In this document: positions 3,291-21,011 of the stretch, one piece after another
Position numbering within the stretch: the first letter of the stretch is position 1
Layout: each line of letters begins with the position of its first letter
Virus record (IMG/VR): IMGVR_UViG_3300031692_000011
Coordinates: 1 to 38,127 of that record
DNA: 38,127 nt
From: a virus
Strand: one strand, 5' to 3'
Position numbers and translations under genes: made by a program
Notes under the pieces: model-generated
The model's database searches: none
Told to the model about the DNA's origin: nothing
The model's input: the letters and a program-made list of their open reading frames with translations, nothing else

Positions 3291-3923
3291 ATGTCTAATA
3301 TCTATGTCAAAGGACCTAATAACAAAGTAGATAATTTTGATCAAAAAACTAAAGACTTAATCTATCAATATCGCATAGAACAAAATCTCTCCTACCCGGA
3401 AATAGCTAAAAAATTAAAACTTGCTCCCGTTACTGTCTTTAAATATGTAAAAAAATATTTGAATCCAACTTTTAACTCCTCTCTTCAAACTAATCAACAA
3501 AAAGCTTCAACAGGAAATAAATGGGCATTAAAATATACGGAAGATGATATCGCAGTTTTACTAGACGATCTTTATAACTTTGCTGTTAATTCTGATAATA
3601 TCATGATTAATCGATATATTTATCGTAAGTATGGTAAAACGCCCGATTGGCTTCCAAGTCTAGTTGTTACGTATCCTTTTCTTAGGGAAAAATTAGACGA
3701 AATTAAACGCTTAATAGCAGACAGAATTCGCGACAAATCTATTCAGGGTAAGTACAATGTGTCATTTGCGAAGGATGTAATCGAAGAATTTGACGAGGAT
3801 TATTTGAAGCTTCAACAAGAAAGAGCTAACCGTAGTAAAAAGGAAGAATCGAAAGAATCAACGCTCAATATTAACGTTATCGATTGGCGTAAAGATAAAG
3901 AAAAATCTTCAAAAAAAGATTAA
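3291..3923 (+). CDS. Terminase small-subunit-like DNA-binding protein
   Basis: A 210-residue protein in two parts. Residues ~20-57 form a helix-turn-helix (YPEIAKKLKLAPVTVFKYVKK). Residues ~80-165 resemble the small-terminase/DNA-packaging domain of many phages: KYTEDDIAVLLDDL, a middle with WLPSL, a segment PFLREKLDEIKRLIADR, then the typical SIQGKYNVSFAKDVI ending. The tail is charged and probably disordered. The role would be to recognise the packaging site and hand DNA to the large subunit, which is encoded about 16 kb away rather than next door. A replication-region regulator is the alternative. The ribosome site is weak. Confidence 0.55.
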   Translation: MSNIYVKGPNNKVDNFDQKTKDLIYQYRIEQNLSYPEIAKKLKLAPVTVFKYVKKYLNPTFNSSLQTNQQKASTGNKWALKYTEDDIAVLLDDLYNFAVNSDNIMINRYIYRKYGKTPDWLPSLVVTYPFLREKLDEIKRLIADRIRDKSIQGKYNVSFAKDVIEEFDEDYLKLQQERANRSKKEESKESTLNINVIDWRKDKEKSSKKD

Positions 3924-4021
3924 CTAGGTAAAAATTCCCTATCTAATCATCATTTTAATCCTTGATTCAAAAACATTCTAGGTAGATATTTAAAATTTTA
4001 TTTTTTAGGTATGCTATGAGT

Positions 4022-4054
4022 AGAAAAAAAACAAGGCTCTCCTGCAAGAGAGCC
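4022..4054 (-). terminator. Terminator, leftward orientation
   Basis: A perfect 7-bp stem GGCTCTC/GAGAGCC (4035-4041 with 4048-4054) with a 6-base loop. On the minus strand it is followed by TTGTTTTTTTT, on the plus strand by A residues, so it terminates leftward RNA. No leftward gene ends here. Confidence 0.65.
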
Positions 4055-4073
4055 AAAAAAAACATAATAAAAA

Positions 4074-4101
4074 AATATATGTCTAAACATTACCAAAACA
4101 A
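4074..4101 (-). promoter_or_regulatory. Possible leftward promoter of a very short RNA
   Basis: Minus-strand TTGTTT (4101-4096), 16-bp spacer and TATATT (4079-4074) would start RNA near 4066 and reach the terminator at 4054-4035, giving a ~45-base transcript. The region is extremely AT-rich, so a chance match is likely. Confidence 0.25.
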
Positions 4102-4151
4102 TTTATTTTTTCCAATAACAGATTTTTTTTTAATTTTAAGGAGTGGCAAAA

Positions 4152-5090
4152 ATGACTAACTTTGTATCTCAACATCATTCTTTTGATATCCATTTAGCTG
4201 AAGAATTTGGAATTGAAGAAGCGATTCTTATCCACCATTTCCAACATTGGATAAGAGTAAACAGACGATTAAAAAGAAATTTTAGAGAAAATAGAACGTG
4301 GAGCTATCAAACCCAAAAAGAAATGCAAGCTCACTTTCCTTATCTAAAATTAGAAACTGTAAAATATGCTTTAGAACAATTAATCGAAAAAAAAGTTTTA
4401 ATTAGAAAAAATTTCAATAAAAATCCAATTGATAAAACTTGGTGGTATGCTTTTGTTGATGAGGATAAATTTATAAATTCAAATAATTTTTACGATACGG
4501 AAAATTCCGTGTCGACACGGAAAATTCCCCCACCTATACCAGATACTATAAACCCAGATACTAAAACCTATAATAATAAACCCAACCCAAATCCAACCAA
4601 ACAGCCTCAAAGCCCAAAGCTAAAGCAATGGGCTAACGACTTTCTTTCTTTTCTCAACAGAATCAGAGAATCGCTTGGCGTATACGCCTTAGATTCTTCG
4701 GCAATTACAAATAACTGGCATAAAGAACTACAACGTATCCGTAGCAAGATATCTTTAGATGACTACAGATCCATACTTACGCTTCTAGAGAAAGACGCCT
4801 TCTGGAGAATGGTGGTTACAAACCCCGCAAAACTGCGAAAGAATCTGGATAGCTTCCAATTAAAGCTAGCAGCGATTAAGAATAGCCCCGCAGCCATCAA
4901 GCAGCGAAAGCATGAGGAGCTAGAAGCAATTGCTACAGCGAATAGACAATGGTGGCGAGATAAAAAGCATTTGTGCCATGAAAAAGCCGATGAGTGTCAA
5001 AGTGGTTTATGGATAAATAAGCGATTACTATGTTTTTGGGATGAAGACTTTCCGAATGCTTGCAGGATTGAATTCCCCGAATTCAAATAA
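4152..5090 (+). CDS. Replication initiator / helicase-loader protein
   Basis: A 312-residue protein with the architecture of phage replication proteins. A winged-helix N-terminal domain (residues ~1-110) has EEAILIHHFQHWI, RTWSYQTQKEMQAHFP and the LETVKYALEQLIEKKVL helix plus wing ending TWWYAF. A low-complexity linker rich in Pro, Asn, Thr and Lys follows (about 118-160). The C-terminal helical domain has a late cysteine-containing segment (CHEKADECQSGLWINKRLLC). I chose ATG 4152 because AAGGAG lies eight bases before it, whereas GTG 4143 is too close. Expected role: bind the origin and load DnaB, encoded downstream. The linker DNA holds the probable origin repeats. Confidence 0.7.
   Translation: MTNFVSQHHSFDIHLAEEFGIEEAILIHHFQHWIRVNRRLKRNFRENRTWSYQTQKEMQAHFPYLKLETVKYALEQLIEKKVLIRKNFNKNPIDKTWWYAFVDEDKFINSNNFYDTENSVSTRKIPPPIPDTINPDTKTYNNKPNPNPTKQPQSPKLKQWANDFLSFLNRIRESLGVYALDSSAITNNWHKELQRIRSKISLDDYRSILTLLEKDAFWRMVVTNPAKLRKNLDSFQLKLAAIKNSPAAIKQRKHEELEAIATANRQWWRDKKHLCHEKADECQSGLWINKRLLCFWDEDFPNACRIEFPEFK
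4497..4625 (+). other. Probable replication origin inside the initiator gene
   Basis: Two identical 12-mers ACGGAAAATTCC (4497 and 4517) are spaced 20 bp apart, with the palindrome CGTGTCGACACG (4508-4519) between them. Two copies of CCAGATACTA at 4539 and 4554 follow. From 4527 to about 4620 the plus strand is almost free of G and rich in A and C. The two 12-mers are read in different frames (T-E-N-S versus T-R-K-I-P), so their identity is not explained by the protein. In lambda the origin iterons and an asymmetric A-rich tract lie in the same place, the linker region of gene O. Confidence 0.6.
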
Positions 5091-5111
5091 TTTCTTTACA
5101 CTATGCCCAAC

Positions 5112-5137
5112 AAAAAACCCCACCAGTGATGGCGGGG
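5112..5137 (-). terminator. Terminator, leftward orientation
   Basis: On the minus strand CCCCGCC/GGTGGGG (5137-5131 with 5124-5118; the one non-Watson-Crick pair is a G-U wobble) is followed by TTTTTTG. On the plus strand the same pair is an A-C mismatch and no T run follows. It therefore terminates leftward RNA, although it lies just after the rightward initiator gene. Confidence 0.65.
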
Positions 5138-5210
5138 CTGACCAAATTTGTTGAGGTATTAAATCAACGTATATATGTTAATCTACGATTGAATTTAACA
5201 CGAGGTATTT

Positions 5211-5441
5211 ATGTGGATAGAAATAGAAACTACCAAATCATCAAAATTTATAAATCTAGATAAGTTACATTATATTGAAAAATCTGAATGGGGTATGACT
5301 TCTGATATTGCAAGTGCTGAAGTATATACTATACATTATTGCAATAAAAATGAAGTTAAATTTGAAGAAGTATTTTTTGATAAAGAAAAAAGAGATAATA
5401 AATATAACTTTTTAATGAATATTCTTAATTCAAAATTATAA
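5211..5441 (+). CDS. Small replication-region protein, unknown
   Basis: A 76-residue protein with ACGAGG ahead of the start. It begins with a beta-rich pattern (MWIEIETTKSSKFINLDKLHYIEK), then a polar loop, another strand pair and a C-terminal helix. The layout resembles small strand-swapped phage proteins, but no family is recognised. It lies between the replication initiator and DnaB in one operon. Confidence 0.65.
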   Translation: MWIEIETTKSSKFINLDKLHYIEKSEWGMTSDIASAEVYTIHYCNKNEVKFEEVFFDKEKRDNKYNFLMNILNSKL

Positions 5442-5475
5442 TAATAATTACACTTTAAAAAAAATGGAGAATTTT

Positions 5476-6771
5476 ATGTCTAGTCTTTATGACATTGAGT
5501 CTGAATTTTACCTTTTAGCCCTTGGGCTTCATGATTCTGATATTATTAACGATCTGGTTGCTGATTTTGATGTAAAAGATTTTTTTGATGAACGTCATCG
5601 CTACATATTTTCCGCTATTTCTGACATTTACAAAAAAGAAAATGCGATTACGTTTGCCTCACTAAAACGAGAACTGGGGGAAAACATCTCAAAGGCTGGA
5701 AGTCTCAATTATTTATTAGAATTTTTGCATACTTCTTCTTTTTTGGATTTTACTTCTTTAAAGGAAACTATTAAGCAAAAGCGTCATGTACGGGAGATCT
5801 ATCAATATGCGATAGACATTTCGTCGCATGTAAATGAAAAGGTAGATTATGAGGAATTCATCGATCAATACCGAGCGCGTGCATTTAAAGTATTTGATAA
5901 AATCGACGACAATACCGTTTATAGCCTTTCTAACGAAGGGAAAGAGATGAACGTATATAAAGAGGCGCTTGCGAATGCAGAGGCTTATAAGCAGGGAATA
6001 CGGCCGAATACAGGCATTTCGTCTGGATATTACTCGTTAGATAATTTTATTAATGGATTTGCTAAAGGGCATCTGATCATTGTAGGTGCAAGGACATCGA
6101 TGGGCAAGTCTACATTAATGACCAATATGTGTTTAAATATGGAAAAACATAATCCTATGATTTTCTCATTGGAAATGCCCGCACATGATTTAATCACAAA
6201 AATGATCTTTACAAAGGCGCAAGTTAATTTAAAAGGATTTAAAGAAGGTAAGTTAGATCCAAAAGACATACAAAATATTCATGGCTATACAAAAGAATTA
6301 GGTAAACGTACGGTTATTATTGACGATACGCCTGCGATAAAACCGTCACAGATGCTTGCTCGTATTCGTAGGCATATTATGTTAGATAAAGTTGATATTG
6401 TGTTTATCGATTATCTGCAATTGATGAGGGGTGACGATAGAAAATATGAAAGCAATGAGGTAAGGGTTGCTAGTATTTCTCGGGAGCTTAAACGTATGGC
6501 GAAGTTATTGGACATTCCGATTATTGCGTTAGCACAGTTAAATAGAGAGCTGGAGAAAAGAGAGAATAAAAAGCCTAAGATTAGTGATCTTCGGGAATCC
6601 GGATCGATTGAAGCCGATGCAGATTTGATTCTTTTGTTACATCGGCCATCTTTTTATGACATATATGATAAACCGGGAATTTTACAAGTTTTTATTGGAA
6701 AGAATAGATTTGGAGAGTGCGGGGTATGTGACCTGCGTTTTAATATGGCCATAGGGAAAATAGAGGATTAA
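5476..6771 (+). CDS. dnaB: Replicative DNA helicase DnaB
   Basis: A 431-residue hexameric replicative helicase. An N-terminal helical DnaB-N domain occupies about residues 1-105 (includes FFDERHRYIFSAI). The RecA-like motor follows with Walker A GARTSMGKST (204-213), the H1a-type FSLEMP, Walker B DIVFIDYLQLM (307-317), and the sensor/H4 segment LAQLNRELEKR then LRESGSIEADAD. I chose ATG 5476 because GGAG lies six bases before it; the upstream ATG 5464 overlaps that site. It would be loaded by the protein from 4152-5090. No primase is encoded, so host primase is presumably recruited. Confidence 0.95.
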   Translation: MSSLYDIESEFYLLALGLHDSDIINDLVADFDVKDFFDERHRYIFSAISDIYKKENAITFASLKRELGENISKAGSLNYLLEFLHTSSFLDFTSLKETIKQKRHVREIYQYAIDISSHVNEKVDYEEFIDQYRARAFKVFDKIDDNTVYSLSNEGKEMNVYKEALANAEAYKQGIRPNTGISSGYYSLDNFINGFAKGHLIIVGARTSMGKSTLMTNMCLNMEKHNPMIFSLEMPAHDLITKMIFTKAQVNLKGFKEGKLDPKDIQNIHGYTKELGKRTVIIDDTPAIKPSQMLARIRRHIMLDKVDIVFIDYLQLMRGDDRKYESNEVRVASISRELKRMAKLLDIPIIALAQLNRELEKRENKKPKISDLRESGSIEADADLILLLHRPSFYDIYDKPGILQVFIGKNRFGECGVCDLRFNMAIGKIED

Positions 6772-9576: not shown

Positions 9577-10314
9577 ATGAAACTTGTTCATTATTCAGCT
9601 AATGAAATAAAAGAACTAAAAAATGACTATAAATATCCAAATAAAAGTTGCTTTTATTGTCGCATGAAGCCGTTAGGTCTCTGGGTTAGTGATGACGATG
9701 ATTATGGTTGGCGTCAATGGTGTGAAAAAAACGACTTTTGTTTAGAAAACTTACAGTATTCATATGAAATAGAACTAAAAGAGAAAGCGAATATATTACT
9801 ATTAAAAAGTGAGGAAGATATTTTGCATTTTACTGCTAAATATAAAATTGAAGACTCTCATCCACAAATTGACGGGATATTATGGCAGAAAGTAAAAGAT
9901 GATTATGAAGGAATATTAATCACTCCCTATAGGAACGAGTTAGCTTATCATCTACAAAGTGATTGGTATCATGGGTGGGATTGTGCAAGTGGCTGTATAT
10001 GGGATATTACGAGTATTAAAACATTTAAATTAAGGAAGACAATGGCAACACCTATTGAAAACACGCTACGGCTATTAGAACGCTATACTGATCTATTTGC
10101 CCATACAAAGAACCATTCCATCCCAAAGAAAATTCTTGCTAAGGTAAATAATGTATTGGTTAACGCGGGTATTGATTGGACTCATTGCTCGGATATAGTA
10201 GTCGACTGCTTAAATGAACGATTTCCCGAATATGCTATAGTGATTGCTGTCGGGAAGGATGAAGAAAATCGTATGTTAATAGGAAGTATATGGATAGGAA
10301 AGAAATCAGGTTAA
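9577..10314 (+). CDS. ART-like domain fused to a second small protein
   Basis: A 245-residue protein that looks like two genes joined. Residues 1-153 match a family of small phage proteins with an HYS opening (5-7), GLWVSDDDDYGWRQW, a strand EIELKEKANILLL, and the terminal signature WYHGWDCASGCIWD. The arrangement recalls ADP-ribosyltransferase-fold enzymes (His-Tyr start), but activity is not shown. That family normally ends soon after CIWD. Here the frame runs on into a 90-residue domain from Met156 (ATG 10042), which has its own AAGGAAG site. The second part may also be made alone. The other array proteins are shorter. Confidence 0.65.
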   Translation: MKLVHYSANEIKELKNDYKYPNKSCFYCRMKPLGLWVSDDDDYGWRQWCEKNDFCLENLQYSYEIELKEKANILLLKSEEDILHFTAKYKIEDSHPQIDGILWQKVKDDYEGILITPYRNELAYHLQSDWYHGWDCASGCIWDITSIKTFKLRKTMATPIENTLRLLERYTDLFAHTKNHSIPKKILAKVNNVLVNAGIDWTHCSDIVVDCLNERFPEYAIVIAVGKDEENRMLIGSIWIGKKSG

Positions 10315-19706: not shown

Positions 19707-21011
19707 ATGGAATTAACAGTTCCACATAATTTTACTCCTAGATTTTATCAACTTCCCTTTCTTCAGGCTATGGATGCTGGCGCACGCTATGCCATGTTGA
19801 TGTGGCCAAGACGTCATGGTAAAGATAAGACAGCGTTTGCATATCTTGCTAAACGAATGATTAAAGAAAAAGCTAACTATGCGTATTTATTTCCTACAGG
19901 TTCATTAGCTAGAGAAGCTGCATGGACTAATATTGATAAAGATGGTTTTGCATTAATAGATCACATCCCTAAAGAACTAATAAAGAAAAGACGTGATGAT
20001 CAGATGTTCTTGGAATTGGTGAATGGTTCTACTTTGAAGTTTTTTGGATCAGATAAAAAAGATTCCGTAGGGCCTAACTATAAGGGAATTGTATTGTCTG
20101 AATTTGCGTTAATGAATCCACAGACATATTTCTATCTCCGGCCAATTATTCGTGATAATAAAGGTTTTATCATTATTGCTTCTACGGTTAGAGGAAAGAA
20201 TCATTACTATGATCTATGGAATATGGCAAAGGAAGACGAAGAATGGTTTACTCAAAAGCTGACATGGGAAGATTGTCAGCAAATGACACAAGACGATATC
20301 GATGCGGAAATACGATCGGGTATGTCAGAAGAAATGATACGTTCAGAATATTATAATGATTTTGCAGGTTTAGAAGGTTCGTACTACATTAAATATATTG
20401 ATAAAATGCGTGCGGATGGACGAATTAAATTTATTCCCCATGATCCCTACGCAAAAGTTTATACGGCATGGGATATAGGTGTACATGATGCTACTACAAT
20501 CATTTGGTTTCAAATTATAGGTCAAGAAATCCATATTCTTGAATGTTATAGCAATAATAATGTAGGTCTTGATCATTATGCAAAAATAATTCATTCCAAA
20601 GATTATCTCTATGAAAAGCATTTTGCTCCGCATGATATTAAAGTAAAAGAATGGGGTAATAATGCGATTAGTCGTCATGAGATGGCATATCAACTCGGTA
20701 TTGAATTTGACATATTAGAAACTCTATCAATCTCTGTTTTAGATGGAATAGAATTATGTCGGTCGATGTTTCATAAAGTATGGATAAATGAAAAAACAAA
20801 TAAAGAATTAATTATTTCCCTCGAAAACTATAGAAAAGATTTTGATAAGAAAAGAAATATTTATGTCAATTATCCGATTCATGACAAATTCAGTCATTTT
20901 GCTGATGGATTTCGTTATGCGATGATAGGAGTAAAAAAGGAAGAACAATATAAAAATGGCCTTTCAATGGATGATATTTCTTTACTTAATCATAAAAGAT
21001 TAAGAATTTAG
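19707..21011 (+). CDS. Terminase large subunit
   Basis: A 434-residue packaging motor. Walker A is WPRRHGKDKT (residues 33-42), the variant with Arg-Arg-His-Gly-Lys common in podoviruses. Walker B and the catalytic Glu are GIVLSE (127-132). The coupling motif is around IIASTVRGKNHYY (157-169). The nuclease domain opens with VYTAWDIGVHDATTIIWF (251-268, Asp256 a likely metal ligand), with later acidic candidates before HDKFSHFADGFRYA near the C-terminus. The protein docks on the portal encoded downstream. No small subunit is next to it; the best candidate is at 3291-3923. Confidence 0.93.
   Translation: MELTVPHNFTPRFYQLPFLQAMDAGARYAMLMWPRRHGKDKTAFAYLAKRMIKEKANYAYLFPTGSLAREAAWTNIDKDGFALIDHIPKELIKKRRDDQMFLELVNGSTLKFFGSDKKDSVGPNYKGIVLSEFALMNPQTYFYLRPIIRDNKGFIIIASTVRGKNHYYDLWNMAKEDEEWFTQKLTWEDCQQMTQDDIDAEIRSGMSEEMIRSEYYNDFAGLEGSYYIKYIDKMRADGRIKFIPHDPYAKVYTAWDIGVHDATTIIWFQIIGQEIHILECYSNNNVGLDHYAKIIHSKDYLYEKHFAPHDIKVKEWGNNAISRHEMAYQLGIEFDILETLSISVLDGIELCRSMFHKVWINEKTNKELIISLENYRKDFDKKRNIYVNYPIHDKFSHFADGFRYAMIGVKKEEQYKNGLSMDDISLLNHKRLRI

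Follow-up and report, generated by a model that had tools for sequence, protein, structure and literature searches.

A putative replication origin lies at positions 4497-4621 of the window (the 38,127-bp IMG/VR virus record, analysed over its full length), in the linker of the phage's own initiator gene, where two iterons are followed by a constant motif for melting or a helper function, in an arrangement like those of lambda and of RepA_N plasmids. We give this reading a probability of roughly four in five. That an origin may lie inside an initiator gene is known, having been described for a few model phages and plasmids; what appears to be new is the constant element.

The window carries tailed-phage markers (terminase, portal and major head protein matches) and also encodes RecT, YqaJ and RusA. 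Its initiator gene runs from 4152 to 5090 on the plus strand and was recognised from PHROG 11233 and an AlphaFold2 model of the 312-residue product, P0001. The replication initiation protein profile PHROG 11233 matches residues 7-164, covering the N-domain and the linker, with an E value of 5.6e-26, and the protein is laid out as a winged-helix N-domain (about residues 9-110), a linker (about 112-142) and a helical C-domain. The AlphaFold2 block means are 90-98 over residues 11-110 and mostly below 50 over residues 112-142, and the linker around the latter is predicted to be disordered. The C-terminal domain, encoded at 4602-5087 on the plus strand, resembles the C-domain of lambda O-like initiators: it matches PHROG 391 (E 1.6e-6), PHROG 2357 (E 1.3e-4) and PHROG 2514, all of which lambda O matches too, and the direct BLASTP alignment of lambda O with it is weak (29% over 45 residues, E 0.011 in a single comparison). 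PHROG 678, another O-like profile matched by lambda O, covers residues 25-168 of P0001 (E 8.3e-8), with no N-domain match by BLASTP. A Pfam search of P0001 returned no family at E<=1, hence no RepA_N domain; a sequence search of solved structures (query A1) gave nothing relevant at E<=10, and Rfam over 3900-5300 gave three matches, each below the gathering score. Terminator-like hairpins are found on the minus strand on both sides of the gene, at 4035-4054 and 5116-5139.

Within the linker, the 12-mer ACGGAAAATTCC occurs exactly at 4497-4508 and again at 4517-4528; the copies are 20 bp apart from start to start and therefore fall in different codon registers, as the original prediction had pointed out. 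The pair is better described as two inverted-repeat iterons: iteron 1, ACGGAAAATTCCGT (4497-4510), in which both half-sites read ACGGAA, and iteron 2, ACGGAAAATTCCCC (4517-4530), whose left half is exact, whose right half is degenerate and whose axis lies 20 bp from that of iteron 1. The 12-bp palindrome reported between the two 12-mers does exist, but it resolves into the right half of iteron 1 and the left half of iteron 2. The iteron core ACGGAANNTTCC is absent from the rest of the 38,127-bp record, where the 12-mer at up to two mismatches has 8 sites against 3.75 expected, as many being reached in 5 of 100 shuffles. Protein constraint had been said not to explain the identity of the two 12-mers, and this was confirmed: none of 5000 synonymous-codon resamplings that kept the protein reached the iteron repeat score (p=1/5001). 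An exact 32-mer of the window iterons had no match in IMG/VR, which means that other records there do not have this iteron sequence.

Repeats of this kind are common in relatives. The initiator set was assembled by protein from 20 IMG/VR loci found with single-protein patterns and from the best 80 of 567 aligned relatives, two sets that overlap; from its 81 genes we dropped 22 near-duplicates and three (L106, L130, L134) in which the conserved T.WYAF end was not found after start trimming. Linker repeats beyond codon chance (p<=0.05) are present in 38 of the 56 usable non-redundant initiators, window included, with offsets of 22 bp in 27 cases, 20 bp in 5, 21 bp in 5 and 23 bp in one, so that 33 are out of codon register. 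The iteron sequences vary among phages (e.g., GGGGAAAACCCC, GGGATATCCCC and GACAAAATTGTC), as expected of self-specific iterons. Relatives that have the same initiator and no repeats, named at the outset as evidence against an origin, do exist in the sense that 18 of the 56 lack a significant ungapped repeat, against the 38 that have one; imperfect copies can be seen by eye in some of these 18, such as L071 and L107. Half-sites could be extracted for 38 loci, but with two alternative dyad frames possible their co-variation with the recognition helix is an unreliable measure. The protein patterns had no match in genome_contigs, and 31 plasmid records showed N-domain matches.

Inverted-repeat sites near the gene of a winged-helix protein might also be operators through which the initiator regulates itself, rather than a replication start, and the minus strand has a predicted terminator-like hairpin at 4505-4522. 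We regard this explanation as very improbable: the repeats lie about 345 bp inside the gene, promoter-like sites there number 3 against 4.8 expected from shuffles, the hairpin is made of the back-to-back half-sites, and the layout fits described intragenic origins.

Directly 3' of the iterons lies a constant element, CCTATACCAGATACTAAA, which starts at 4533 in the window and had been missed by the original prediction. The window's version, CCTATACCAGATACTA (4533-4548, plus strand, codons CCT ATA CCA GAT ACT), is a putative melting or helper motif and scores 15/16 to TATACCAGATACTAAA (p=0.01). A second copy of its 3' half, CCAGATACTAAAA, follows 15 bp on, at 4554-4566 of the same strand. The word CCAGATACTA has two exact copies, at 4539 and 4554, in the same frame and separated by 15 bp; both copies had been noticed as a second set of repeats, and they are there, but relatives place them in the constant element that begins at 4533. 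Their count is ordinary in the record (2 sites at up to one mismatch against 1.72 expected), and the pair carries weight because of the relatives, not because of its number.

We scored the element in 63 usable loci. At 13/16 or better it is present in 45 of them; resampling the codons of the same protein (200 resamplings) gave 14 loci on average and 21 at most, and shuffling codon order gave 0.6 on average and 5 at most. At 11/16 or better it is found in 57 loci and absent in 6, codon resampling giving a mean of 44 and a maximum of 51; taken singly, 36 of the 63 loci reach p<=0.05. Its codons are invariant: Ile is ATA in 50/50, the second Pro is CCA in 49/49 and Asp is GAT in 32/32, counts which favour the element somewhat, as the best DNA match was taken wherever a linker offered several candidate peptides. 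Conserved residues where the N-domain ends served as controls: the Asp of DxTxWYAF is GAC in 24 cases and GAT in 26, and Ala and Thr also vary; the Tyr of WYAF is biased too (TAT in 43/50, p=5.8e-4). In 56 of the 57 loci at 11/16 or better the element stands in one frame, and in L020 (2995-3825) it stands in another, at 15/16.

Whether DNA or protein is conserved can be judged from a sister family, the staphylococcal DnaD-like initiators, whose N-domain is 35% identical to that of P0001 over 88 residues (E 6e-14, single comparison). We kept 80 loci of 222 relatives, giving 18 non-redundant linkers, a set from which L355 was left out although it contains CCAATACCA. This sequence is present in 80/80 kept loci, in 79 of them in one frame other than the window's; that frame reads TNT in the 17 inspected, and L353 (1064-1834) reads PIP, which is the window's frame. 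Together with L020, the element is therefore read in three frames, the same DNA giving TNTRDY or PIPEI in sister-family proteins, QYQILN in L020 and PIPDTK in the window family. L353 and L020, in which an intact initiator ORF carries the element shifted in frame, are useful natural experiments.

That PIPDTK is a conserved linker peptide, with the DNA merely following, is hardly tenable in view of these readings. The element is in frame in 56/57 window-family loci, and the peptide does account for much of the looser DNA match; against this, the element's codons are invariant when most conserved residues nearby vary theirs, the same DNA encodes other peptides elsewhere, and the linker around it is predicted to be disordered. 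What settles the question of DNA over protein is that the sister family keeps CCAATACCA in another frame: as far as sequence comparison goes, the element is conserved as DNA and not as peptide. The original prediction had proposed to look in relatives for conservation at the DNA rather than the protein level, and the codon-invariant element and its changes of frame bear it out.

The two families also agree in spacing. Measured upstream from the element, the window family (56 loci pooled) has its dyad axes at 9, 31 and 53 bp, and the staphylococcal family (18 loci pooled) at 9.5, 32.5 and 54.5 bp; in the window, the nearest axis is at 4523.5, the element begins at 4533, and the next iteron axis is 20 bp further away. 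Extra dyads, at 19.5-20 bp in the window family and at 43.5 bp in the staphylococcal family, fit back-to-back half-sites. Judged from these alignments, both families are of one architecture, in which about two turns of the helix separate one iteron from the next. One anatomy recurs in two phage families: iterons that are free in sequence and spaced by about 22 bp, and a fixed 9-mer at a common 9-9.5 bp from the last iteron axis. With the fixed part kept against codon choice and reading frame, the part that confers specificity (the iterons) appears separable from a constant working part. Such an anatomy predicts targets for mutation and offers a way of locating origins in metagenomic phages.

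The element can be used to search by DNA only. An 18-mer scan of IMG/VR gave 30 stretches, 26 of which lie in the linker of such an initiator (8 of the 26 are on contigs already found by protein, and some are duplicates). In genome_contigs the 18-mer had 5 matches, 3 outside such initiators and 2 within them, the latter on Candidatus Pacebacteria MAG contigs (L052, about 4162-5139, and L056, about 5257-6231), each with a winged-helix initiator-like ORF that contains CCTATACCAGATACTAAA; a phage or an integrated element of CPR bacteria is a possible source of these ORFs. The repeat AGATACTAAA alone was rejected as a signature, being unspecific, with 20 of 41 stretches in these initiators. By BLASTN against named phages, a 42-base repeat form matched 121 records, 83 of them Enterococcus phages, and the one match inspected (L058) lies in a small unrelated ORF; the same search also matched five Flavobacterium elemo initiators. 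Among 13 named phage relatives, the 9-mer CCWATACCA is exact in 3, has one change in 5 and two changes in 1, and stands at 6/9 in 4, including Ceridwen, whose gene ends before a linker. In Pseudoalteromonas phage H6/1 (L063, 2492-3202), CCTATACC is kept and two copies of TGTTAGTAA, 12 bp apart, replace the AGATACTAAA repeats, which suggests that the element's 5' part can evolve separately from its 3' part.

Downstream of the initiator gene, and separated from it by one small ORF, the window encodes a DnaB-type replicative helicase (5464-6771, plus strand, PF03796, E 5.2e-79), the likely client of the initiator if the two proteins interact as we suppose. Among 20 relative records (loci L002-L074, which may be fragments), 2 have a DnaB_C helicase, 5 others an IstB/DnaC-like loader and 13 neither. 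By coordinate arithmetic, all seven helicase or loader genes lie within some 0.7 kb downstream of the initiator, a proximity that fits recruitment of the helicase by the C-domain; as 13 of 20 records show neither, phages of this kind do not as a rule encode a helicase beside the initiator, and those 13 would presumably recruit the host helicase. The original prediction is upheld in part: iterons and DNA-level conservation support an origin-like element in the initiator gene, built like ori-lambda, whereas binding by the N-domain and loading of DnaB are putative, and the helicase next door does not generalise.

N-domain pairs are related in 1540/1540 cases at E<=1e-4 and C-domain pairs in 49/1326, the C-domains forming 24 clusters among 52; from these comparisons, they appear to be freely exchanged among relatives. 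As the client of the C-domain varies and the element does not, the reader of the element is presumably the N-domain and not the helicase. From the anatomy one can also see how an origin and its winged-helix module could move together onto new C-terminal partners. The element might be a recombination hot spot, a joint for swapping winged-helix modules onto new C-domains that exchange keeps similar, and the place of the joint, after the element, and the known mosaicism of phage replication initiation proteins (PMC10684548) agree with this, as does the contrast between N- and C-domain pairs. Exchange alone, however, would neither keep out-of-register iterons at a common distance nor produce other frames, which makes this account improbable as a replacement for the origin, with which such a role can coexist.

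The element stands within a G-poor, A+C-rich, strand-asymmetric tract at 4526-4621 (plus strand), the most asymmetric in the record. The stretch of about 90 bases nearly without G that had been described here is indeed extreme: 4529-4618 contains only 4 G in 90 bases, and position 4526 has the record-wide maximum both of C minus G, in windows of 90 bases, and of A+C, in windows of 93 bases. Next to the iterons the tract seems asymmetric rather than markedly AT-rich, with 70% AT over 4533-4582 in a genome of 66% AT. Ranked by ease of melting, the 50 bp at the constant element come only within the top 8.6% of the window, and the 50-mer at 4387, upstream, is less stable still. A search of the record for strict DnaA boxes gave none. 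Cumulative GC skew, the check proposed for the start site, answers two ways: its minimum is at 4898 when the record is taken as linear, and at 19765 when the linear trend is removed as for a circle. A regression on third-codon skew fits best at 5000-5750, in a tie with the opposite arm split when the initiator gene is included, and positions better than 4540 number 10/153 without the initiator gene and 37/77 with it. Skew mostly tracks gene strand. We take it as weak evidence because of the detrended minimum at 19765 and because the regression does not pinpoint 4540.

In the mechanism that we propose, the winged-helix N-domain would first bind the two inverted-repeat iterons, as its fold and the anatomy suggest. 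Binding would strain the flanking DNA, which may then open at CCTATACCAGATACTA and its second copy, and one strand of the opened element would be held, most likely by the initiator, in the manner of plasmid Rep proteins, whose binding to a single strand of the melting region is sequence-specific (PMC4081077). Finally, the lambda-O-like C-domain would bring in the phage DnaB. We infer binding, melting and helicase loading alike by analogy with known systems.

The constant element may serve instead for docking on double-stranded DNA, as a fixed half-operator in addition to the iterons, recognised by a conserved part of the winged-helix domain or by the helicase or its loader, and not as a site of melting and capture. 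It accompanies the winged-helix family though the C-domains differ, its distance from the last iteron axis is common to two families, and it is not exceptionally AT-rich, all of which docking would explain. We nevertheless judge docking less likely, as the 3' part of the element repeats at 12, 14 or 15 bp (17 bp by eye in L108) within the strand-asymmetric tract, and repeats of this sort resemble those of the melting regions in plasmids, where melting-region repeats are found (PMC10797057). Docking by the helicase or loader has a further difficulty in that the recruiting C-domains differ and the element does not.

The melting reading draws on comparison with known systems, among them lambda. 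Intragenic origins have been described for lambda and Stx phages, and the lambda iterons are inverted repeats followed by an AT-rich tract (PMC7466680). As in the window, the inverted-repeat iterons of ori-lambda sit inside the initiator gene, between the N- and C-domains, and the O-like C-domain profiles are matched by both proteins. The lambda iterons, at positions 39034, 39054, 39078 and 39101, are 20-24 bp apart and number four against two in the window; the N-domain of P0001 is not alignable to lambda O by BLASTP, and the phage carries a DnaB of its own. An extension of the element to lambda was rejected (best 10/18), and the 80 lambda O relatives are 99-100% identical.

Plasmids of the pSK41 type have a RepA_N origin in the centre of rep, where it encodes the linker that joins a winged-helix N-domain to a C-domain specific to the genus (PMC5703833). 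The window shares a putative mid-gene origin in a linker that follows a winged-helix N-domain, and differs in that P0001 has no Pfam match at E<=1. By structure, 4pql, 4pt7 and 5kbj account for the top Foldseek row and for rows 1, 2 and 4 of VIA-align (Foldseek E 0.038-0.16), with Z 9.5 for 4pql (98 aligned, 5.3 Å), 9.3 for 4pt7 (94, 3.5 Å) and 8.8 for 5kbj (94, 3.6 Å). The titles found for them read 'DNA binding protein', 'initiator' and 'Rep-DNA complex', and we take all three to be staphylococcal RepA. As a structural match to RepA this is weak, since other winged helices score equally well, the unrelated 1ft9 reaching Z 9.2.

Related in sequence are the staphylococcal DnaD-like initiators of the SP276/phiSP44-1 type, which share the related N-domain and iterons followed by CCAATACCA at the same distance; they differ in the frame of the element (79/80), in a repeat period of 22-23 and in their iteron sequences. 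In Staphylococcus phage 80alpha, an origin inside the initiator gene has been argued for from failure to complement in trans (PMC5499656), and a putative rep_origin is annotated at 9674-9899; its gp20 has no BLASTP N-domain match to P0001, and extension of the element to 80alpha was rejected (best 10/18). Lambda O and 80alpha gp20, with N-domains unalignable to P0001, are thus without the element, and for this reason it appears to follow this winged-helix family. In TP901-1, element matches of 13/18 and 10/11 lie upstream of its iterons, and another of 10/11, CAGCTACTAAA, was seen after the iterons by eye (5 of 17 loci inspected). Likened by description only, the Francisella phage KIRK has repeats in a replication gene, fhv_0043, regarded as a putative origin and compared by its authors to lambda (PMC7924643). 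Finally, the Quimbyviridae have a RepA-like winged-helix protein beside a DnaB-family helicase, as in the window, and the part of PMC8008677 covered here mentions neither an origin nor linker repeats.

In the open-access papers searched, as far as their text was covered, the constant element is undescribed, and its letters had no match save in a malaria study. A wider reading, which we offer tentatively since we lean against it, is that a large superfamily of phage winged-helix initiators shares the core word CCWATACCAGA(T/G)ACTA, which the initiator would capture single-stranded at melting, as a counterpart of the DnaA-trio. That superfamily would span phages of Firmicutes, Bacteroidota and Proteobacteria, and possibly also reach CPR bacteria. 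If this were true, a constant element and freely evolving iterons would be embedded together in coding sequence in all three frames, and the core word could be used as a DNA-only signature for origins in uncultured phages. A further stretch, TCAAATAAT...TTTACGA, lies directly before iteron 1 at about 4475-4500 of the window, and a loose pattern places it in 13 of 66 non-redundant initiators, the window's among them; it is possibly a left-flank part of the origin, or a trace of shared ancestry.
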